NCBI GenBank assembly: GCA_016788565.1
Contig: JAEUSP010000088.1
Coordinates: 62,001-126,000, forward strand
Length of the DNA stretch: 64,000 bases
Reading direction: 5' to 3'
From: Chlorobiota bacterium
GTDB taxonomy: Bacteria > Bacteroidota > Ignavibacteria > OLB7
Of this stretch, positions 22,698-58,030 are shown piece by piece. How positions within the stretch are numbered: position 1 is the first letter of the stretch; every line of letters starts with the position of its first letter. The translations under genes were made by a program, and so were the position numbers. A model generated the notes under the pieces. It was not told the DNA's origin. It saw only the letters and a list, made by a program, of their open reading frames with translations, and did not search any database.

Positions 22698-23641
22698 GAT
22701 TCCTGTTGGTTCGGCGGGGTTCCTTCGTCGGTGGCGCGTGGGTGGGCAAGATTGTAGGCGTTTTTCAGCCGCTCGATGGTGACGTGGGTATAAATCTGGG
22801 TGCTGCTTAACGAGGAATGCCCCAACAACTCACCCACCTCGCGGATTCCCGCGCCGGCATCCAACAAATGGGTGGCAAAACTGTGACGCAGCACGTGCGG
22901 GCTTTTCTTTTTTTGCTCGGTGATCCCCTTCATGTAGCGGCTCACCACGCGGTAAATTCCACCGCCATCGAACGGGTTGCCACGGTTGGTGAGGAACAGA
23001 GCGTCGGGCAGGCCATCGGCTACCAACTCCATGCGGACGTTCAGATATTCGCGCAGTGCGTTGGCGGCATCGCGGCCAAAGGGGACAATCCGCTCCTTCC
23101 CCCCTTTGCCCGTCACTTTCATGGTGTTGTTGGCGTGGTTCACGTCCCGCAACCGGATACCACAAAGCTCGGCACGGCGAAGCCCGGTGGAGTAGAATAA
23201 TTCAAGAATGGCAGCATCCCGTTTGCCGTTGGTGGTTGTGGTGTCGGGGGCCAGCATCAGGTTTTCTGCTTCGTTCGCGCTCAGCACGGTGGGAAGCCGT
23301 TGTTCGGGGCGCGGGGCCACCACCAGCGCGGCTGGGTTCGATTCAATCCACTCCATCTGGCGGCAAAATTTGGTGAACGATTTCAGCGCGGCAAGCCTTC
23401 TGCCAATGGTCCGCCGCGACTGCCCGGCTTTGTGCAACGCTGCAATGAAACCACGAACCTCACGCGGGGTTACATCCCCCAGCATCGGTAAGTCCACGCC
23501 AAGCACATTCCGCAGATGTTCGGTAAACCGCTCAAGGTCCCCCTGGTACGCCTCGATGGTTTTTGGTGAGTAGCGTTGCTGAAGCTCCAGATGCTCCAAA
23601 AATTGGCGCACGGCAATGTGAAATGGGATTGGCTGCTGCAT
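22694..23641 (-). CDS. xerC: Tyrosine recombinase XerC/XerD type
   Basis: A 315-residue integrase-family recombinase. The N-terminal SAM-like DNA-binding domain holds FLEHLELQQRYSPKTIEAYQ. The catalytic domain carries the full set of active-site residues: R in TGLRRAELC, K in GKGGKER, HxxR in PHVLRHSFATHLL, H in LGHSSLSSTQ and the nucleophile Y in IYTHV. Length is normal for chromosome-dimer resolution recombinases (about 300), and no phage genes are near, so a housekeeping Xer role at dif is favoured over an integrase. Whether it is XerC, XerD or a single XerH-like protein cannot be decided here. It is the first gene of a two-gene unit with the barrel protein. Confidence 0.88.
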   Translation of the reverse strand: MQQPIPFHIAVRQFLEHLELQQRYSPKTIEAYQGDLERFTEHLRNVLGVDLPMLGDVTPREVRGFIAALHKAGQSRRTIGRRLAALKSFTKFCRQMEWIESNPAALVVAPRPEQRLPTVLSANEAENLMLAPDTTTTNGKRDAAILELFYSTGLRRAELCGIRLRDVNHANNTMKVTGKGGKERIVPFGRDAANALREYLNVRMELVADGLPDALFLTNRGNPFDGGGIYRVVSRYMKGITEQKKKSPHVLRHSFATHLLDAGAGIREVGELLGHSSLSSTQIYTHVTIERLKNAYNLAHPRATDEGTPPNQQES

Positions 23642-23831
23642 GGATTGCTCTGCTTGTACAGATTCTGTTTGTTGGGGAAATCACGGTGGCAATCTACATG
23701 AATCATTTGGTGGGACAACCCACTCGGCACGGCAGAAACTCCGTTTGCCAGCATCATTTTTTTCCCGTTCTTGCTCACCGTCAGAATCATTGAGCAAACC
23801 GTTCTTCTTCATCGCATTTCACGCTGGCTCC

Positions 23832-26800
23832 ATGAACCTCTATTTCCGTTCCTTGCTGATTGCCTTCACCCTGCTGTTCCTGCTGCTGCGGAACCAGCCA
23901 TTGGCTGCGCAGCCAACAATCTCCTACATCATTCCCGACATCGGTACGCCGGGGATGAACACCTATGTTGAGGTTATCGGGCCACAAAACAAGTCGGGAA
24001 ATTTTGGGGGAACCAACGACGTTATCGGCAACGGCCAAGTATCGGTGCAAACCGTCAATCCTGCCGATACCAACCGGGTGATGATCTCACCCCCGATTGT
24101 GAGTTGGCAAGGGAGGATGATTGGCTGCCAGATTTTTGTCCGCGATGATGCCGCGTTGGGGCCGGTTCCCATTCGGGTGGTGGTGAACGGGGTGCAATCC
24201 AACGCCGACACCTTTTTCATTGTGGCACCGCAAACCATTGGCAACCAGAACGGCGGCGGCCAGCTTGGCAGCGGCACGCTTGGCCGACGCTCGAAACGGG
24301 GGGCGATGATTGTGGACAGCTTGATTTTAACCAACGGAATCTACACCATCAGCACCGGCGATACCGACCCGCAGACCGGTGGCGGGCAGGGGTATCTTCC
24401 ATGCGTGATACTGAGCAAAGGCCCCGTGCTTGTTGGCTTCAATGGCGAAATTGTGGTTGATGCGATTGGGAAACATGGCGGTCCCGGCGGCGGTGGCAGC
24501 GGCGGCTACGGCGCAACCCGGCCAGCACAACCACCGCTGATCCCGGCAGTCCCCGGCGAGCTTGACGTTCCGCTTGGGAACGGTTTTTCAGGCGGGGTCA
24601 GCAGTGTTCCGGTAGTCCCTTCGCCGGGCGGGTTTGGGATTGGAACCGGGCCGAACTCTGCCAGCTTGAACGGAGTAAGAGCCAACACCAGTTTCAGCAC
24701 CACCCGTTTGTACAGCGGCGGCCCGGGCCACCCGTTCGATTCCGATGGCCGCAGCGGTGGTTCGGCAGCGGTCAGCACCAACCCGTTTGCGCCGTTCGGA
24801 ATCTACTTTGGCGGCGGCGGAAATGCTGGGCCGGGGACGGGGATCACCGCACCCAGCTTCCTTTCGGTGAACGGCCAAGTGATTGGCAACGCCGCCATTG
24901 TTCCGCTGCATGGCGGGGCGGGTGGGTCCAGCGGGGGAAGCAACGACAGCGTTGGCGGCGGCGGTGGTGGCGGGATTGCAATCTACTCGCAAAGCGGACT
25001 TTCCATTGCCTCCATCACCGCAAACGGCGGCAACGGGCGGGATGGGTTCGACTGTGGTTCGGTGCTGCAAGGGTGTGGCGATCCTTCTGCTGGAGGCGCG
25101 GGGGGCTGCATCATTTTGGGGGCGCGAGGGATCGTCAGCAGCGGCACAGCCCACACACGCGGCGGAAGAGGGGGCAAAGCGGCAGCCGTTGCTCTGCCAG
25201 GCTCAACAGCTGGCGATGGTGGGCCAGGGCGATTCCGATACGACGGCATCAACGCCGGAGCAGCCTTCACTACCACAACCGGCGGAAGTTCCAGCCGGGG
25301 GATTTCCTTCAACCCAATCTCCACCACTCCCACTCCCAGCTTTTTCCTTTCCGGCTCGGCCAACACTGGCGACACCGTGTTGATCTACTACCGCACCAAC
25401 CGCCGCCCCTGGAACAGCACCGCTCCACTGAAGGTTGTGACAACCGGCGTGCTGTGGGCGCAGCAAATCACCTTGCAGCCGGGGGATTCAACGGTGTATC
25501 TGTTTGGGCTTCGCCGCAGCCTTGCCTCCGAGCTGGCCACCTCCACCCCCTACCAGCAGGTTCCCGCAGGAATCTTGTCACAGGTGGCTGCGGCCATTGT
25601 AAAATTTCAACCAGCACCGTTGATTCAGGCCACGCTGCGCACATCGGGCGATTCGCTGATTTGCGATAGCGTTCTGTACGACACCATTACCATCCATAAC
25701 CGTGGCGCGGCACCGCTTAGGATTGATCCACAAACCAGAATCACCGCTACCAACGGTGTTATTGCCCAATTGATCCTGAGCCTTGCAGTCATTCTTCAAC
25801 CGTTGGACTCTGTCCGGGCAGTGGTGCGGGTGCAGGGGAATGGAGCCACCGGGCGCGTTGGCTACACACTCTCCATTATCAGCAACGACCCCGATCCTTC
25901 GCGAAGCCCGATGAAGATGCTCATTGAGCATTTCATCTTCCCGATGAAGTATCAAATGTCCCCACTGCTAGATTTTGGGGATGTGCGCATCGGGTTGCCG
26001 AAGGATAGTCTGTTGAACATGAGAAACACAGGCGGGGTGGATATTCAAGCCACAAATTTCACCCCACTTGCAACTCCATTTTCAGCCCTTTGGGATCCAG
26101 CATCGCCCGTCACGATTATGCCACCCGCCGGGTACGCTTTCCGTTTCCGTTTTGCCCCGCGCGACACCGGGTTGTTTGTTGCCACGCTACGCCTGCGGCT
26201 GCAACCATGCGGGGTTGACACCGCAATCACGTTGCGGGGATATGGCCGTTCGGGGATTATCACCACAGCAACCGATTGGGCATTCGACCAAGCAACCTGT
26301 GCCGACACCGCAACGCAACGCTACTTGGTGAAGAACACCGGGAACGATACGCTAACATTACAGCAGCCAGCAGTTACTGGTGCTGGGTTCGCGTTGGTGC
26401 AGCCTGCGGCGGGGATGTGGCCAATCGCGCTTGCCCCAAAAGATTCCATCTTCATCTACTTGCACGCCAACCTGAACGGAGCGGCCAGCATCAGCGGCAG
26501 CGTAGTTTTCCAAACCGATGACTCGTTGCCCGGGAAAAACCCACACAGCGTTAGCCTGACAGCAGCGCGCGATAACGTGAAGTTGTTGGGGGATAGCATC
26601 ATCAATTTTGGGAAGGTCTGTGTGGGGTCATCGGCGGCACGAAATGCCCGCTTGGTGAATGGGGGAACACGCACCGTTGCCACGTTGGAGTCGGGTGTGT
26701 TTGCCGCGAACACGGCGGCGTTTGTCATCAGCAACAGCGCGTTCCCACGCACGCTTTCGGCCAGCGCGCAGGATAGCGTTCTGGTGCAATTTTCGCCAAC

Positions 26801-28562
26801 CCGAACCGGACCGTTTGTGGATACGTTGGCGATATTCTACCGCCCCTGCAACCAGTTTCGGAACATTGTTGTGATTGGCGAAGGGATTGCCAACAGCGGG
26901 GAATACTCCGTTCAGGGAGTTGACTTTGGCGATGTTCCATTAACCCAACCAGCACAGCGAACGGTGGTGATTCGGAACACAGCCACCACCCCGGGCCAGG
27001 ATTTGGTGATTGACCGCCTAAGCAGCGATCCCCGGCTGCGCATCCTTTCGCCAACCATCCCCCCTGCCCTGCGGATCGCACCGAACGACTCGGTGGTGGT
27101 GACGATAGAGTTTGCCCCCACCGCACCCGACACCTTGAAGAATGCCTATCTGACCGCCACCATCGCCAGCCCGTGCGCAAGCACGATACTGCTGCCAATT
27201 TTTGGACAAGGGGTTGGGGAAGGGCTTCTGCTCAGTAAATCAGTTATCGGCTATCCACCAACGCTCCGTTGCCAAAACAGCACCGATACGCTGGTGATTT
27301 GGAACCGAACCGGAGCCGCGGTCCAGTTGGGAACAATCTCCCTTGTTCCAAGCTCGGCAACGGCCTTTCTCACGGTGCAGCAGCTTGTTGGAAACAACAC
27401 CATTCTCCCCCAAGATTCGGCTCTGTTTGCCATTACATTCACCCCAACCGATCCCCCCGATGGCCCGCGTTCGGCCACGCTGCAATTCACCACAACCGAC
27501 CCGCAACGCCCACTGCTTCAGGTTCCGATCGTGGGGGAACGCGCCACGCAGCAACTCACTTTTCCAATCATCAATTTCTTCAACACCCCGGTGCAAACCT
27601 CGGCATCGGTGCGGCAACTGCTGCAAAACAGCGGGACGGCATCGGTGGAGATCAGGTCGCTGACGGCTCCCCCGCCGTTCCGGGTGGTTGCCACGCGCCC
27701 GGGCTTGCCGATTACGCTGAAAGTCGGGGAATCGGTGGAAGTTGAGTTGGAGTTCAGCGCGGCAGAAGCGGGCACATTTAACGACTCCATCAGGGTTGTT
27801 GGCACATTCCCGTGCGGCGAAACGCCAGCATTCCCAATCAGCGGGCGGGCGGTGGCGCAGCTTGATCTATCGGGATATTGGGAAGATATTTCCGCCGCAC
27901 CCGGCCAGGAAGTGTTGCTTCCGTTGCGGGTTGATCGGGACCTGACCCCAGCAGCAATCACCGGGTACAGCATCACTCTCGGGTTCAACCGAACGCTGCT
28001 GCGGCCCACCGGAATCATCCTTGATGGAACGCTCTCGCAGGGGTGGACAACGATAATCAGCAAGATGGAGCCTGGGGTTGTGGAGTTCACCGCAGGTGGC
28101 GCAACGCCGCTTCGTGGCTCTGGAATCGTAGCCTACGTTGCTGCGCGCGCAACGCTTGGGGATTCGGTTTCAACGCTCATCGCCTCCCCAAGCTCGGCAC
28201 AGCTAACGGGATTATCCACGGCCCTATCCATTGCCCCGGGGCTGTTTCGGCTACGCGATGTTTGCGAAGAAGGGGGCGTTCGGTTAGTGCGTAGCACCGG
28301 TGGCTTCGGCATAAAACTGGTGGCTCCCCAGCCCGCAACTGGGGAAACGGAGGTGACGATTGGGACGGTGGAAGATGGAAGCGTTCTGGTGCGATTGCTG
28401 GATGCGCGGGGGTCGGTGGTGGAAACGTTGGTGAAGGAATCCTTGCCGCATGGCGAGCATCGGTTGCGGCTATCGGCAGGTTGGATAACTGCTGGGGTCT
28501 ATTTCCTTGAGCTACGCACCCCCACGCAAACGGATCGTCGGGCAATCATCATTGCCCGTTAG
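23832..28562 (+). CDS. Giant T9SS cargo with Gly-rich, choice-of-anchor and cohesin-like domains
   Basis: 1576 residues from ATG 23832, which directly precedes a signal peptide (residues 1-28, ending PLAAQ); the frame is open further upstream but that part overlaps the xerC start region. An IPT-like start (TISYIIPDIGTPGMNTYVEV) is followed by a long glycine/serine-rich stretch at about 130-490 (many GGGGSGG runs). Several choice-of-anchor/ASPM-SPD2-Hydin-type beta domains follow, recognised by repeated FGDVRIGLPKDSLLNMRNTG-like units (about 710-1330). Near 1360 a cohesin-like domain (PGQEVLLPLRVDRDLTPAAI) appears. The end (GFGIKLVAPQPATGETEVTI onward) is a T9SS sorting tail. A surface or adhesive role is inferred. 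Confidence 0.8.
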   Translation: MNLYFRSLLIAFTLLFLLLRNQPLAAQPTISYIIPDIGTPGMNTYVEVIGPQNKSGNFGGTNDVIGNGQVSVQTVNPADTNRVMISPPIVSWQGRMIGCQIFVRDDAALGPVPIRVVVNGVQSNADTFFIVAPQTIGNQNGGGQLGSGTLGRRSKRGAMIVDSLILTNGIYTISTGDTDPQTGGGQGYLPCVILSKGPVLVGFNGEIVVDAIGKHGGPGGGGSGGYGATRPAQPPLIPAVPGELDVPLGNGFSGGVSSVPVVPSPGGFGIGTGPNSASLNGVRANTSFSTTRLYSGGPGHPFDSDGRSGGSAAVSTNPFAPFGIYFGGGGNAGPGTGITAPSFLSVNGQVIGNAAIVPLHGGAGGSSGGSNDSVGGGGGGGIAIYSQSGLSIASITANGGNGRDGFDCGSVLQGCGDPSAGGAGGCIILGARGIVSSGTAHTRGGRGGKAAAVALPGSTAGDGGPGRFRYDGINAGAAFTTTTGGSSSRGISFNPISTTPTPSFFLSGSANTGDTVLIYYRTNRRPWNSTAPLKVVTTGVLWAQQITLQPGDSTVYLFGLRRSLASELATSTPYQQVPAGILSQVAAAIVKFQPAPLIQATLRTSGDSLICDSVLYDTITIHNRGAAPLRIDPQTRITATNGVIAQLILSLAVILQPLDSVRAVVRVQGNGATGRVGYTLSIISNDPDPSRSPMKMLIEHFIFPMKYQMSPLLDFGDVRIGLPKDSLLNMRNTGGVDIQATNFTPLATPFSALWDPASPVTIMPPAGYAFRFRFAPRDTGLFVATLRLRLQPCGVDTAITLRGYGRSGIITTATDWAFDQATCADTATQRYLVKNTGNDTLTLQQPAVTGAGFALVQPAAGMWPIALAPKDSIFIYLHANLNGAASISGSVVFQTDDSLPGKNPHSVSLTAARDNVKLLGDSIINFGKVCVGSSAARNARLVNGGTRTVATLESGVFAANTAAFVISNSAFPRTLSASAQDSVLVQFSPTRTGPFVDTLAIFYRPCNQFRNIVVIGEGIANSGEYSVQGVDFGDVPLTQPAQRTVVIRNTATTPGQDLVIDRLSSDPRLRILSPTIPPALRIAPNDSVVVTIEFAPTAPDTLKNAYLTATIASPCASTILLPIFGQGVGEGLLLSKSVIGYPPTLRCQNSTDTLVIWNRTGAAVQLGTISLVPSSATAFLTVQQLVGNNTILPQDSALFAITFTPTDPPDGPRSATLQFTTTDPQRPLLQVPIVGERATQQLTFPIINFFNTPVQTSASVRQLLQNSGTASVEIRSLTAPPPFRVVATRPGLPITLKVGESVEVELEFSAAEAGTFNDSIRVVGTFPCGETPAFPISGRAVAQLDLSGYWEDISAAPGQEVLLPLRVDRDLTPAAITGYSITLGFNRTLLRPTGIILDGTLSQGWTTIISKMEPGVVEFTAGGATPLRGSGIVAYVAARATLGDSVSTLIASPSSAQLTGLSTALSIAPGLFRLRDVCEEGGVRLVRSTGGFGIKLVAPQPATGETEVTIGTVEDGSVLVRLLDARGSVVETLVKESLPHGEHRLRLSAGWITAGVYFLELRTPTQTDRRAIIIAR

Positions 28563-28596
28563 GAATTTGCTTGCCCTTCCGTTAGGAATTTGCTTG
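28556..28596 (+). repeat. Tandem 18-bp direct repeat at the CDS end
   Basis: The 18-base word CCGTTAGGAATTTGCTTG occurs twice, 23 bases apart. The first copy includes the TAG stop codon of the giant T9SS gene. It sits at the edge of the AT-rich restriction-modification cassette. No further copy was found at the other edge. Confidence 0.7.
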
Positions 28597-28698
28597 ATAG
28601 TGTTACCGAGCGTTGGGCGGGGCGGTGTTGGGCAGTAGATTTGCCAGTTCGTTGGGGTAGAGCTACTAACCGAATCTTGTTTTATTCCACAACAGCCT

Positions 28699-29856
28699 AT
28701 GGCATATCCTTCTGTTGACGCGCTTCAGAAAATTTTGGCTGATACGGTGTTCAGCTATGCAGTGGATAAAAAGAAAGCTGCGGGCAGAGCGTTGGGAACG
28801 ATTGTAGAGATCATCACGTTCTACGCGCTTGACTCTTGGGGATACAGAGAATCCATAGCTATTGAGCGATCTATCCCTGAGTATGCAAACCCCGTTCTTA
28901 CACACAATGTTGAATTTTCATTGCACCCAGTACTGAACAATCTCAACATTGAATTGCAGGATATGCCATTGCCGATTACTGCAAGCAAAATCAGAAATGC
29001 ACGATTAAGCAATAACACTGTTCCTGTTGTACGAACGCCTTCAACGCAGTTGTTATCAAGGGATCATCTTCTACGAAACGCCTGCATTATTGAGGAGACA
29101 GCTACTGGGTTTCAGGTTGCTAACCTACATTCCTATCACAAGGCGGCCACACCGGCCAACTTGGCGAAGGTTGTTTTGACGGATTTATACCGCCACCCTT
29201 TTGCAATTGTAGAATGCAAAAGAGTTGGCGTAGAAGAAGGAGCGCGTAAAGGTCCGCAAACCATTGAAAAAGCAAAGCAAGGAGCCTATGTAGCCCGAAG
29301 CATTTCATCTCTTCAAAAAATTCGGTTTCGGAATGGGGATATCGGCGGAGTGCTTCATCACGAAGATGACTCTATCACCTGCCAACTCTACAAAGATATC
29401 TTAAAAGAAATTCTTGCATCTGATTCTCGCTCATTACTTGAAGGTTTTATTCTCACAATTGGCATTGTCAGTAATCACGGAAATTGGTTTACGTCAGGGA
29501 ATCAGAATAAAGAGATGAAGGTGCTGTCTCAATCCTATGATTGGCTGCTGTTTTTAACCGATGACGCGCTTGCGCAGTTTATCACCGATACCCTTCTTGA
29601 GCCAAGTAGGGATATGGAGCCAATTCGGGATGCTTTTCTTCGCAGTTATACCGGCAAACGTCAAAAAAACTGTTTTACGAAAGTACAGATTGATCTTGAG
29701 GCTGACAGAAGATTGCGTAGGTATTTCAGTTCTCGCACCTCTGATATTGACGCATGGTTTAGCCTGATAACCCCACATAATTCTGCCATTAGTGAATTAC
29801 GAACTGAATTGAATCTTTTACAACAAAAAAACTGGAATACGATCTTGAACCTATGA
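28699..29856 (+). CDS. Putative type II restriction endonuclease (PD-(D/E)xK)
   Basis: A 385-residue soluble protein. The pattern TDLYRHPFAIVECKRVG places D162 nine residues before E172-C-K174, the canonical spacing of a PD-(D/E)xK nuclease site after a short hydrophobic strand. It overlaps the following DNA adenine methyltransferase gene by four bases (ATGA), the common layout of a type II restriction-modification system. The recognition sequence cannot be predicted, and I do not recognise the subfamily. Base composition is clearly AT-rich (some stretches near 30% GC) compared with about 58-60% around it, pointing to horizontal transfer. The frame is intact. Confidence 0.7.
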   Translation: MAYPSVDALQKILADTVFSYAVDKKKAAGRALGTIVEIITFYALDSWGYRESIAIERSIPEYANPVLTHNVEFSLHPVLNNLNIELQDMPLPITASKIRNARLSNNTVPVVRTPSTQLLSRDHLLRNACIIEETATGFQVANLHSYHKAATPANLAKVVLTDLYRHPFAIVECKRVGVEEGARKGPQTIEKAKQGAYVARSISSLQKIRFRNGDIGGVLHHEDDSITCQLYKDILKEILASDSRSLLEGFILTIGIVSNHGNWFTSGNQNKEMKVLSQSYDWLLFLTDDALAQFITDTLLEPSRDMEPIRDAFLRSYTGKRQKNCFTKVQIDLEADRRLRRYFSSRTSDIDAWFSLITPHNSAISELRTELNLLQQKNWNTILNL

Positions 29857-30452
29857 GCGCTGGGCGTACCGTTAATTCATCAAGCCAACATTGGGGAACA
29901 CCAAAAAAATACGTTGATGTCATTCGACGTTTTTTTGATGGTGCTATTGATCTTGACCCTTGCTCGAATCAATACTCTATTGTTAATGCAAACCTAGAAT
30001 ATCATCTTCCATATCAGGATGGATTACGGGAGTCGTGGAATTATTCACGTATTTTTGTTAATCCACCCTATGGCGCTGATCGTGAGCGGGGAACAACGAT
30101 TAAACATTGGCTCTATCGTTGTGCCGATGCTCATTGGCGGTATTCATCCGAGGTGGTTGCGCTGGTTCCTGTTGCTACCAACACTCGGCACTGGAAACAG
30201 TACGTCTGGGGACGCGCTACGGCTATCGCTTTTCTGTACGATACGCGATTAAAATTCCTTGTAAATGGCAACGATGGTGGGAAAGGTGCCCCAATGTCAT
30301 GTGCAATCGTTTATTGGGGAAAGCAGTATCGTAAATTTCACGACCTATTTATCCAGTATGGTGCCGTAGTGGATATCCGGAATTTACATCAACAATCAAT
30401 CGGCCCATTAAAAGAAATTCCGCAACTCTCTTTGATGGAACAACTCTCGTAA
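29853..30452 (+). CDS. DNA N6-adenine methyltransferase, phage Dam-like
   Basis: A 199-residue protein of the phage N-6-adenine methyltransferase (Dam, DUF-type small MTase) family. It opens QHWGTPKKYVDVIRRFFDG, typical of this family. The acidic SAM-binding segment DLDPCSNQYSI follows, then the catalytic FVNPPYGADRERG (NPPY motif). It is short because it lacks a large target-recognition domain. It overlaps the nuclease gene by ATGA and presumably protects the same site. Like the nuclease it is AT-rich. If only one strand or one base is modified, the system would be a two-gene type II R-M. A solitary methyltransferase role is less likely given the coupling. Confidence 0.82.
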   Translation: MSAGRTVNSSSQHWGTPKKYVDVIRRFFDGAIDLDPCSNQYSIVNANLEYHLPYQDGLRESWNYSRIFVNPPYGADRERGTTIKHWLYRCADAHWRYSSEVVALVPVATNTRHWKQYVWGRATAIAFLYDTRLKFLVNGNDGGKGAPMSCAIVYWGKQYRKFHDLFIQYGAVVDIRNLHQQSIGPLKEIPQLSLMEQLS

Positions 30453-30468
30453 CTGAACCGCAGATACT

Positions 30469-45424: not shown

Positions 45425-48097
45425 TTACTCCCGCACCACCACCAACTCCCCGCGAGCTTCGCCACGAACGTGCAGCAGATACGTTCCTGCAGATAATCCT
45501 GAAAGGTCTATCACTTCCTCGCTTGCTCCTGCCGGCACCACAAACTGCCGCAGCTGCCGCCCAGAAAGATCATGCAAAACCAACTCACGTTCTCTGGAAA
45601 TTGCGCGAGCCAACTCCACCCTAGCTCGGCGACTGACCGGGTTCGGAATAATCCGGAAACCTCCTCCATCTGCAACTGGAGCATCATGCACTGCCAGTGC
45701 TGTTTGGGGAACCACGACTGTTCCGTACACATCGGCTACGCCATTGCGGTGGTCAATCCACACAACGAACAAGGAATCATTTTTGAAAATGGCGCGTGGG
45801 GTGGCGGTGAATGCGCTATCGCCACCAATGCGGGTGAGCGGGGTAACCTGACGCAAATGCTTGTTCATCGTCAGCATCCACACTCCATTTTTCGCGCTGG
45901 TGAATAGTATTGCCAACCCTGAATCTTGAGGATTTTGGACAAAATAAACCCCATTAAATTCTGCGTTCCCTCGCTGGATAGTTGCTGAATCCACCCATTG
46001 CACCGTTCCATTTTCTGTAAAACTAAATCGCTCCAAAAATCCCTTCGGTGTCCACCGTAGAAAATATGGGCCGAACAACCGCATTCCAGAGTAAGGGCCA
46101 TCTGGATGAAGTTTTTGAGATCGGAGAAGAGAATCGTCTGTTTGGAGCAATAAATCTTGGTTTGACAGCAAGAAGAACAAGCTATCAGAAACTGGAAGAA
46201 GACTGGGGTTATCTGAAGAAGTAGGAGGGTTTGCGACGCGCCATTTTTGTTTTCCATTCAGATCAAATGATATGACAAATTTCTCAAGAGTGCGATATCC
46301 GGGGCTAATAAATCCAAATTGGATCAGAAAGTCTTTTGTTTCAGGATGCTGTGCCCAAGATATTAACTGGACATCAAGATTTTTGGTATTACTATCAATG
46401 CTCACAGGCTGTGTCCAGCCAGTATCGGTAGGAAATCGGAGATCAGTGCGGCGATAGGTTGAATCACCTTGTAGAGTTTTTTTTATCCATTGATATGTTG
46501 CTCCTGCTACACAACGATCACCCGACTGCATCACCGACCTACCGATTAGCGATTCTGATGTCAGTATGGATTGAGAGGCAATGGAAGTATCGGGCAGCCC
46601 TCCCCATTGAACAAGTTCAGCAGTAGTATCAATACCACGACTAATCCAACCAAGAAACATATTTCTATTGCTTGTAGTCAATCCAATGTTCTCTTCAGAA
46701 ATGTTTGTTCGGAGTATGGCGATTTTCGTTGATAACAACAGTTCCTTGTCGCCAATATTAACTAGGATATTGCTCATCCAGCGATTGGCACCTACAATCC
46801 GTCGTGAAATTTCCTTATTCGTGAAAGTATTCAAGCATATCTGCCGATACTTATCAATATCGCTTGAATCAGTAATAACTACTTCGTTATTTCTGATGAC
46901 ATATAACAAGCTCCGAATACCCGATATGCTTTCATTAACACCACCTTTGAAGTTCCTCCAAGTATAATTATACTGTACTAAAAAAATTCGACTAAGCCCA
47001 TCCCAAAAAATCACCTTCGTATTTATTGGCTCCATAGAAACACTTTGCGATGCGGATAAAACCCAGTAAGTCCAAATTGTTAGCGTTACATCATTATCAA
47101 TCTTCCCATCTAAATTCACATGTGATTTAATGACAGAAAACTGAATTGGATCACCTGTTCCATAAGTCATTCCGCCACCTTTACTGTACATCACAAACAA
47201 CGAATCATCTTCCCGGTATGGGAACACAGAATTGGGGGATATTTTTTCATTTATTTTGAATCGAACGATCTGCTCCGCCACCGTATCCAACACATTCCTG
47301 TATAACAGCAACGCCGTATCCCCTTCCACCGTTGTCATTACTCCATCTCCGCTTACATGCCACTTCCCTCCAAACTTCGTTGACCAACTTCCCACGCCAA
47401 TCTTCGCTCCGGTGCTGTCGAACAGCAACGGTACATCGTTCACTCGAAGCACTGCCGTCACACCGTTGCTAAACGGGCCCATCATGCCTGAAGCGCGACC
47501 GCTATCTAAAAAATCCCACTCCTTTGCTGGATAACCTATGCTGTCTATCCCCTGCATTAGAATGCCACCCGTTGCGCTCGTGTCGTTCCACAGCAGCCTC
47601 ACCTTCCCGCCAGCATCCAACACCATTGCCCCTTGCCCGGGAAATTGCCATTCACTGAACTTCCGCTCCGGCCCAAGTTTCCCCGATGTATCTACCGTCC
47701 GCATCCACACTCCCGAACCCTCCGCTCGACGATCCTTCCAGAATACCAGAAACCGACCCCCTACGGCAACCACCTGAACATATTCCCACGGACGAGCCGA
47801 ATCCGAAGTCAGACGCTGCTGCGGGCCGGATAGCGCTGTGTCCTTCAGCAACTGCATCACCAGCACTGGTAGCGCGCTATCGCCTACACGCTCGGTGGTG
47901 CCGAACACCGCCAACGACCACTCCCCCGATTGCACCCCCGATTGTATCTGTATCTCCGCCGGCAAAACCGGCTGCCACGGATCGTAGGAAAGGCGGATAT
48001 CGCCCGATTGACTGCCCGATTGACTGCGGGCTGGCGAAGCCGCAACCAGGGAAACGATGGCAAAGGCCACAGCAAGGAAGCATGAGCTGAGTCTCAT
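45425..48097 (-). CDS. Large T9SS-exported protein of unknown function
   Basis: 890 residues from ATG 48097, which opens a signal peptide (MRLSSCFLAVAFAIVSLVAA, cleavage near SPARSQ). A short QSGSQSGD / IQSGVQSGEW repeat follows. The body is beta-rich with many tryptophans and aspartates, no FG-GAP repeat and no recognised domain. The C-terminus GFRIIPNPVSRRARVELARA onward, with GRQLRQFVVPAGASEEVIDL and LSAGTYLLHV, is a type A T9SS sorting domain. The middle third (46.2-47.25 kb) is strikingly AT-rich compared with both ends, suggesting a mosaic gene. It is divergent from sprA across 458 bases. Confidence 0.75.
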   Translation of the reverse strand: MRLSSCFLAVAFAIVSLVAASPARSQSGSQSGDIRLSYDPWQPVLPAEIQIQSGVQSGEWSLAVFGTTERVGDSALPVLVMQLLKDTALSGPQQRLTSDSARPWEYVQVVAVGGRFLVFWKDRRAEGSGVWMRTVDTSGKLGPERKFSEWQFPGQGAMVLDAGGKVRLLWNDTSATGGILMQGIDSIGYPAKEWDFLDSGRASGMMGPFSNGVTAVLRVNDVPLLFDSTGAKIGVGSWSTKFGGKWHVSGDGVMTTVEGDTALLLYRNVLDTVAEQIVRFKINEKISPNSVFPYREDDSLFVMYSKGGGMTYGTGDPIQFSVIKSHVNLDGKIDNDVTLTIWTYWVLSASQSVSMEPINTKVIFWDGLSRIFLVQYNYTWRNFKGGVNESISGIRSLLYVIRNNEVVITDSSDIDKYRQICLNTFTNKEISRRIVGANRWMSNILVNIGDKELLLSTKIAILRTNISEENIGLTTSNRNMFLGWISRGIDTTAELVQWGGLPDTSIASQSILTSESLIGRSVMQSGDRCVAGATYQWIKKTLQGDSTYRRTDLRFPTDTGWTQPVSIDSNTKNLDVQLISWAQHPETKDFLIQFGFISPGYRTLEKFVISFDLNGKQKWRVANPPTSSDNPSLLPVSDSLFFLLSNQDLLLQTDDSLLRSQKLHPDGPYSGMRLFGPYFLRWTPKGFLERFSFTENGTVQWVDSATIQRGNAEFNGVYFVQNPQDSGLAILFTSAKNGVWMLTMNKHLRQVTPLTRIGGDSAFTATPRAIFKNDSLFVVWIDHRNGVADVYGTVVVPQTALAVHDAPVADGGGFRIIPNPVSRRARVELARAISRERELVLHDLSGRQLRQFVVPAGASEEVIDLSGLSAGTYLLHVRGEARGELVVVRE

Positions 48098-57892: not shown

Positions 57893-57918
57893 CGGCATTA
57901 CCCTCACTGATGGATTGT

Positions 57919-58030
57919 GGTCAGTGGTCAGTGGTCAGTAGTCAGTGGCAAGAACCAATTCGCAATTCGCAATTCGCAATTCGCCATTCGCAATTCGCAA
58001 TTCGCCATTCGCAATTCGACATTCGACACT
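57919..58030. repeat. Two adjacent short tandem repeats
   Basis: First about four units of GTCAGTGGTCAGT-type 7-mers (57919-57949), then about nine units of a 7-8 base word CAATTCGC/CATTCGC (57956-58030), ending just before the acs stop codon. Related words (GGCATTCGACATTCGG) recur near 62828-62855. They look like slippage repeats and not a CRISPR array, because units are contiguous without spacers. Confidence 0.8.

Follow-up and report, generated by a model that had tools for sequence, protein, structure and literature searches.

The cassette described here very probably constitutes a minimal Type II restriction-modification system, in which a nuclease with a PD-(D/E)XK core is coupled to a PF05869 methyltransferase. 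It lies in the window, the whole 64,000-nucleotide stretch of DNA that was analysed. The restriction-modification reading, already put forward in a preliminary description of this DNA, gains support from the conserved gene pair, the PF05869 assignment and the invariant PD-(D/E)XK-type residues, and further support from a restriction-enzyme-like predicted fold, a patchy horizontal spread and insertion relative to a same-genus genome. On the best reading of the sequence comparisons, the nuclease represents a lineage without a name in the libraries searched (Pfam, NCBIfam and PHROGs).

In the proposed mechanism, the nuclease and the methyltransferase would be translationally coupled through ATGA. 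The methyltransferase would mark the target site in the host's own DNA, which would thereby be spared; unmarked incoming DNA would be cut by the nuclease. Cleavage, methylation (probably N6-adenine) and one specificity common to both enzymes are putative elements of this scheme. An adjacent methyltransferase and nuclease need not recognise the same site, and this counts against the reading.

Organization and composition of the gene pair

A nuclease and a Dam-like methyltransferase overlapping by ATGA had been reported from the reading frames, and both are present:

28699 to 29856, forward strand: nuclease gene, 385 aa, PD-(D/E)XK-type, with conserved E37, E72, E172-x-K174 and Q187/Q194
29853 to 30452, forward strand: DNA adenine methyltransferase gene, 199 aa, Pfam Dam (PF05869), with DPCS and NPPY invariant in relatives

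The ATGA at 29853-29856 combines the nuclease stop with the methyltransferase start. As first described, the pair is also more AT-rich than its surroundings. The present measurements give 43-44% G+C vs 55-60% in four neighbouring genes: G+C is 43.1% in the nuclease gene and 44.3% in the methyltransferase gene, against 54.7% in the window and 55-59.6% in the four neighbours measured, and GC3 is 40.7% and 37.0%, respectively, against 64.7-74% in those neighbours. A promoter and terminator scan returned four promoter-like sites, all on the opposite strand (mean of 4.0 in shuffles), and the window has no match in Rfam.

Conservation and distribution

The methyltransferase gene lies directly 3' of the nuclease in 19/21 nuclease loci, drawn from bacteria, one archaeon and viral contigs; the two exceptions are a contig end and a broken remnant. 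The ATGA overlap recurs in 14 of the 17 pairs measured, and nuclease and methyltransferase distances are correlated (Mantel r 0.765, p 0.0001, 17 pairs). The endonuclease and methyltransferase genes are thus adjacent and inherited together, as in a Type II system.

Across the class, the nuclease occurs in 11/391 genomes and 10/190 genera, one of the 11 being a remnant. Outside the class it is found in Bacteroidales, Oscillospiraceae, a deltaproteobacterial MAG, a Woesearchaeota MAG and viral contigs. A close-relative scan of viral contigs with a single nuclease sequence found none; a scan with the nuclease alignment recovered four loci, three of them with identical cassette sequence. Plasmid and phage records hold no nuclease match at E <= 1e-5. 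The phylum search around the Oscillospiraceae carrier gave 1/299, the centre itself included, and no further convincing carrier; that around the Woesearchaeota carrier gave 2/194, again including the centre, the second match being an unconvincing 38 residues (E 9.4e-5). The spread is horizontal and patchy across phyla.

Decay is evident in some relatives. The L011 nuclease has a stop at residue 271, the G532 methyltransferase is broken and its nuclease breaks 17/96 otherwise invariant columns, and G351 is reduced to fragments. By extension, the window cassette might itself be decayed, with a dead nuclease and an orphan-like methyltransferase. This is quite improbable: the window nuclease has kept its full length and departs from 2/81 columns that do not vary among the others, a count inside the range of 0-4 found for the 17 other relatives (G532 excluded).

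Nuclease residues, family and predicted fold

E37, E172 and K174 are invariant in 19/19 nuclease relatives, and E72 is present in 18/19, with D in the remaining one. E172-x-K174 sits on predicted strand 169-175, so that the nuclease has the acidic residues and the (D/E)-x-K on a core strand that characterise the PD-(D/E)XK superfamily. The triad originally proposed (D162, E172 and K174) thus stands for E172 and K174 and falls for D162, a position occupied in the 19 relatives by E (12), I (3), D (2), V (1) and S (1). Because only 2/19 relatives carry D there, D162 is ruled out as a family-wide catalytic residue.

The window nuclease matches no family in Pfam or NCBIfam at E <= 1 and none in PHROGs; some relatives' nucleases give weak, unrelated Pfam matches (E >= 0.09). 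In PADLOC, the REase_II model PDLC03437, a Type II enzyme model, matches the window nuclease weakly (E 0.029, over 28 residues) and 2/10 nuclease members (best E 0.0024). No sequence relative was found in the PDB, and a text search of the open-access literature, not made by sequence, found no description of the nuclease. The earlier remark that this family is not a recognised one therefore holds within Pfam, NCBIfam, PHROGs and PADLOC.

The predicted fold resembles restriction enzymes, a likeness that is not conclusive alone. In VIA-align, the second nuclease model, built from 19 sequences (mean pLDDT 85.8), has nucleases as its highest matches, namely BstEII (9ibq; Z 6.8, rmsd 3.9, 147 aligned), BbvCI (6eg7; Z 6.0, rmsd 4.9, 160 aligned) and NucC (6p7o; Z 5.9, rmsd 4.0, 146 aligned), followed by BsmI, MspJI, AspBHI, EndoMS and EcoRI (Z 3.8-4.6). 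The first model gives YaeQ (Z 7.1), CdiA-CT (5.5) and Nt.BspD6I (4.8). All of these matches fall below Z 8, where they may reflect merely a common arrangement. At E <= 0.001, Foldseek matched neither the first model to any PDB entry nor the second to any viral structure.

Since the second-model matches include the modification-dependent enzymes MspJI and AspBHI and the CBASS effector NucC, they are compatible with a use other than Type II restriction, in which the nuclease acts on DNA marked by its partner or another enzyme, or serves an anti-phage module with a regulatory methyltransferase. Matches at Z 4 to 6 cannot discriminate nuclease types, however, and a nuclease would kill its own host by cutting DNA that carries the mark of its coupled methyltransferase. 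The strict restriction-modification gene order and the coupling fit classical protection, and a use of either sort is accordingly judged improbable.

Methyltransferase and solitary viral copies

The methyltransferase scores 46.7 bits against Pfam PF05869 (Dam), above the gathering cut-off of 28.1, and matches phrog_111 with E 6.1e-27. Against TIGR01712 (phage N-6-adenine-methyltransferase, equivalog) it reaches 27.3 bits, below the cut-off of 97.05. Viral contigs hold close copies (45-69% identical) without the nuclease; in annotated phage records, identity reaches just 36%. In the tree, the solitary viral methyltransferases interleave with the cassette copies, which fits counter-restriction, as expected: the solitary enzymes may shield phages from restriction by the cassette nuclease.

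Insertion site and the upstream repeat

The insert and the region before it are laid out as follows:

28556 to 28596, no strand: tandem duplication, 23-bp unit, 1.8 copies, upstream of the cassette and not its border
28590 to 28654, forward strand: ancestral rimO leader, kept in cassette-free G296 immediately before rimO
28655 to 30463 (borders approximate), forward strand: inserted cassette, ~1.8 kb replacing ~11 bp of G296

G296, a genome of the same genus without the cassette, provides the empty site. It keeps the 58 bp (28597-28654) that separate the second copy of an 18-mer from the cassette, and because these are retained after the second 18-mer position the insert is placed at about 28655-30463. 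Relative to this same-genus genome, the cassette was inserted within the rimO leader, ahead of that housekeeping gene.

The 18-mer, CCGTTAGGAATTTGCTTG, is exact at 28556-28573 and 28579-28596, and its first copy spans the TAG (28560-28562) of a T9SS gene ending at 28562. The coordinates agree with the preliminary description, which placed two exact copies before the cassette and the first over the T9SS stop codon. It also had the pair adjoining the cassette; the cassette does lie downstream, but the pair is outside the insert, whose left border is near 28655. Further copies are absent elsewhere in the window at <=3 mismatches (0.09 expected in shuffles) and elsewhere in the 4.58 Mb genome at <=2 mismatches.

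This uniqueness and the nearness to the cassette favour a target-site duplication made by cassette insertion, the origin initially suggested for the 18-mer. Such a duplication would leave direct repeats on both flanks; both copies lie upstream of 28655, on one side, and the second is separated from the cassette by 58 bp that G296 retains, so an insertion scar is rejected. The arrangement is instead that of the 23-bp tandem repeat, as by slippage; TRF at score 50 does not list it. Comparison with cassette-free G296, proposed at the outset, thus revealed an empty site and gave no support to an insertion origin of the 18-mer, which is absent from the G296, G297 and G298 stretches (fewest mismatches 6/18). 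The target-site duplication is highly improbable.

A 5-bp AACCG, noticed by eye, occurs near both borders (28668-28672 and 30456-30460) and is short enough for chance.

Recognition site

One proposal, which amounts to a guess, is that the recognition site is ATGCAT, through occasional coupling of the nuclease to a YhdJ-type methyltransferase. For the E. coli enzyme YhdJ, PMC4444293 gives ATGCAT as the marked site and describes NsiI as blocked by it. In G160, a YhdJ-type gene (NF008572, 457.8 bits, cut-off 292) shares 11 nt with the start of the nuclease; in G532, one follows the broken Dam-like gene copy. Of the 11 genomes that hold the nuclease or what remains of it, 4 have a YhdJ-type gene, vs 19/382 in the class (hypergeometric 0.0012), a comparison in which the 391- and 382-genome sets are not exactly alike and relatedness is ignored. 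However, G160 and G532 share one family (f10), and a single event may account for both adjacencies; with the nuclease of G532 degenerating, the loss of the Dam-like gene there needs no substitute. YhdJ-type genes of the class usually adjoin a different nuclease (13/19 loci aligned; the 4 scanned are all PADLOC PDLC03455), and the window cassette is without a YhdJ-type gene, the best in its genome having 33% identity.

Site avoidance gives ATGCAT no specific support. Palindromes were counted in samples of 378 kb of 4.58 Mb (G000), 365 kb (G296), 304 kb (G160) and 246 kb (G200), and their avoidance is strong throughout the genus, with or without the cassette. ATGCAT observed/expected is 3 / 31.3 in G000 and 7 / 41.3 in cassette-free G296 (difference p 0.53), and 35 / 41.6 in G200. 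Taken together, ATGCAT is possible but doubtful.

Among the 77 palindromes compared, the largest differences between G000 and G296 concern GGATCC (17 / 57.9 vs 82 / 102.9, p 5.6e-5) and TCATGA (8 / 69.3 vs 25 / 58.3, p 6.6e-4). The cassette carriers G160 and G200 show no clear avoidance of GGATCC (24 / 38.3 and 17 / 21.4) or TCATGA (54 / 65.7 and 68 / 65.4). A specificity read from these two sites is rejected on this ground, other restriction systems being a possible cause.

Homology between the window nuclease and PDLC03455 was likewise considered and is unsupported (hhalign probability 1.4). The hhalign stretch pairs E37 and E72 of the nuclease with E209 and D255 of PDLC03455, which is suggestive only.

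Significance and relation to known systems

The cassette is a compact addition to the restriction-modification pairs: its nuclease is nameless in the libraries searched, and its carriers include several phyla of bacteria, one archaeon and viral contigs; its natural insertion offers a clean comparison case. There is about an even chance that the nuclease founds its own restriction-enzyme family and that the methyltransferase has been repeatedly exchanged between host cassettes and phages, as self-marker or counter-defence. If so, the solitary viral methyltransferases form a ready panel for one restriction specificity across phyla, and if they protect phages they allow a direct test of how often the protecting half is exchanged between phage and host. 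Otherwise, the cassette is one more Type II system.

Several known systems resemble the cassette in part. BstEII, BbvCI and NucC are similar to its nuclease in predicted fold but differ in sequence, with 10-16% identity and no sequence relationship found. The PF05869 Dam phage-type N-6-adenine methyltransferases (PHROG 111) resemble the cassette enzyme by profile scores; their close viral copies stand alone, whereas the cassette enzyme is coupled to a nuclease and falls far below the TIGR01712 cut-off. The YhdJ-type methyltransferase with PDLC03455 REase_II, from the same class, is also a two-gene system of similar size, and its YhdJ-type gene adjoins the cassette-type nuclease in G160 and G532, but its own nuclease is not detectably related to that of the window. 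Type II restriction-modification systems share with the cassette the adjacent coupled genes, the PD-(D/E)XK-type residues, the patchy horizontal spread and, at most loci, no need of further genes; the cassette differs in its nuclease family, nameless in Pfam, NCBIfam and PHROGs.

Nuclease and methyltransferase as a gene pair

The cassette is judged to be a Type II restriction-modification system, predicted in function, whose nuclease belongs to an unnamed lineage. The preliminary description had reported two AT-rich reading frames overlapping by ATGA beside two exact 18-mers, and the window (bases 62001–126000 of contig 130, in a 4.58 Mb genome of 137 contigs) contains all of these as described:

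23640–28562 (likely start 23832): large choice-of-anchor-D/T9SS-type sorted protein gene between xerC and rimO
28556–28573 and 28579–28596: the two 18-mers, the first covering the stop of the T9SS gene
28699–29856: nuclease gene (385 aa)
29853–30452: Dam-like methyltransferase gene (199 aa)

The Dam-like gene immediately follows that of the nuclease at 19 of 21 loci examined, namely the window, L003 and L004 (from carrier genomes G200 and G160), nine from named genome records (L005–L013), seven from the class search (L202–L208) and two viral ones, L033 (its cassette identical in L034 and L035, counted once) and L036. The exceptions are L206, where the contig ends behind the nuclease, and L208 in genome G532, which keeps only a broken methyltransferase remnant. 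The ATGA overlap recurs in 14 of 17 measured pairs (gaps of 2, 3 and 12 nt in the other three), and protein distances of the two enzymes correlate (Mantel r 0.765, p 0.0001). Among the loci, L008 and L009 are nearly the same sequence, and a stop at residue 271 interrupts the nuclease of L011.

The methyltransferase matches Pfam Dam (PF05869, 46.7 bits, above the cut-off of 28.1), phrog_111 (E 6.1e-27) and the PADLOC orphan methyltransferase model (E 1.1e-12); it does not reach the cut-off of NCBIfam equivalog TIGR01712 (27.3 vs 97.05 bits). DPCS and NPPY are invariant across 12 aligned relatives, and the PDB yielded no sequence relative.

Family and predicted fold of the nuclease

At E ≤ 1, no Pfam, NCBIfam or PHROGs family matches the nuclease. 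A PADLOC Type II enzyme model matches it weakly (E 0.029), as it does 2 of 10 relatives (best 0.0024). E37, E172, K174, Q187 and Q194 are invariant in 19 relatives, and E72 is kept in 18, with D in the remaining one. The D162/E172/K174 triad proposed earlier thus keeps its last two members but loses the first as a family-wide conserved residue, since its position is D in only 2 of 19.

A model predicted from ten sequences (pLDDT 82.2) gives no Foldseek match at E ≤ 0.001. Its leading VIA-align rows are YaeQ (Z 7.1), a CdiA toxin domain (5.5) and Nt.BspD6I (4.8), while a nineteen-sequence model (pLDDT 85.8) places BstEII first (Z 6.8, rmsd 3.9, 147 aligned), then BbvCI (6.0) and NucC (5.9), with BsmI, MspJI, AspBHI, EndoMS and EcoRI lower (3.8 to 4.6); Z values of both models fall where chance arrangements occur. 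Because nucleases head the rows of either run and the E-x-K is invariant, the protein can be read as a putative PD-(D/E)XK nuclease.

Insertion into the rimO leader

G296, a genome of the same genus with rimO 95% identical to that of the window, lacks both the cassette and the T9SS gene. Its rimO leader corresponds to window 28586–28654 and, past an 11-bp stretch, to the sequence from 30464. In G297 and G298, of the same family, a T9SS-type gene (~35% identical to the window's) lies between xerC and rimO with no cassette. Together, these arrangements indicate that the cassette was gained in the rimO leader (~28655–30463), the absence of the T9SS gene from G296 being a separate matter.

The 18-mer occurs in the genome at these two places only, allowing up to 2 mismatches, and the G296, G297 and G298 stretches contain nothing with fewer than 6. 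The earlier idea that it was made at cassette insertion fails: the second copy and the cassette lie 58 bp of ancestral leader apart, which rules out a target-site duplication of this insertion.

Distribution and genomic settings

In the phylum search 3 of 296 genomes match the nuclease, and in the class search 11 of 391 do (10 of 190 genera); the 11 include G351, a remnant, and the decaying G532. Named carriers comprise one deltaproteobacterial, two Oscillospiraceae, five Bacteroidales or Prevotella and one Woesearchaeota MAG; plasmid and phage records gave no nuclease match at E ≤ 1e-5. Neighbours, identified by eye, vary among genomes: for example, the cassette follows an ftsY-like and precedes an rdgB-like gene (L006), or precedes an ileS-like (L013) or leuC-like gene (L202, L203). 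A phage integrase and repressor lie near the cassette in L033. Upstream of the archaeal cassette, L212 2780–2974 encodes a TnpB/Cas12f-like C-terminal fragment (PF07282, E 1.9e-4, below cut-off).

Several palindromes are very strongly avoided in genome samples of both the source genome and G296 (observed vs expected, respectively, for example: AAGCTT 4 vs 145 and 10 vs 131; GGCGCC 10 vs 145 and 17 vs 143; CTAG 57 vs 461 and 50 vs 484), which suggests a long restriction history in the genus. Elsewhere in the window lie other local features:

46001–47000: AT-rich kilobase (41% G+C), beside the next
47001–48000: GC skew −0.305, far off its surroundings
57917–58025: adjoining 7-bp tandem repeat arrays, GTGGTCA and CAATTCG

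Candidate recognition site

The YhdJ enzyme of E. coli methylates ATGCAT, blocking NsiI (PMC4444293). In G160 a YhdJ-type gene shares 11 nt with the start of the nuclease gene, and another follows the broken Dam-like gene in G532; such genes occur in 4 of 11 genomes with the nuclease or a remnant, as against 19 of 382 class genomes, in statistics that ignore sampling and relatedness. ATGCAT as the site of the cassette is nevertheless rather unlikely: 13 of the 19 YhdJ-type genes adjoin another nuclease family, the G532 nuclease departs from 17 of 96 otherwise invariant columns (0 to 4 elsewhere), and carrying the cassette goes with no stronger avoidance of ATGCAT than lacking it. In G532 (L208 1501–3645) the cassette is caught in decay, with an open nuclease frame, a Dam-like remnant and an intact YhdJ-type gene.

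The other nuclease has 370–380 aa, overlaps or adjoins its YhdJ-type partner (L216–L219, L221–L227, L229, L230) and matches PADLOC REase_II PDLC03455 in all four scanned. The two, usually paired, form a second unnamed system in the class.

Solitary viral methyltransferases and known systems

The cassette methyltransferase has solitary counterparts in viral contigs. A viral-contig scan with its alignment confirmed 315 relatives; among the best 80 of these (79 loci), 35 loci (L037–L071) show 45–69% identity. Four are nuclease-bearing contigs again and three repeat another row. The stretch examined for each of the remaining 28 contains no nuclease match, with at least 1.3 kb on each side in 25. 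Phage hallmark genes are confirmed in three (L037 terminase; L044 UvsX and DnaB; L042 portal protein), and the others count as viral by the label of their collection. Cassette and solitary copies interleave in a 51-sequence tree, with at least 11 label changes for the solitary group, five forced by well supported branches, and 14 forks left open. According to a review, some phages bear a cognate orphan methyltransferase with which to escape restriction (PMC10286901).

Type II restriction-modification is already a well-known kind of system, and what is unnamed here is the nuclease family. Its putative fold is one to which TT1808, AF2093 and YaeQ also belong.
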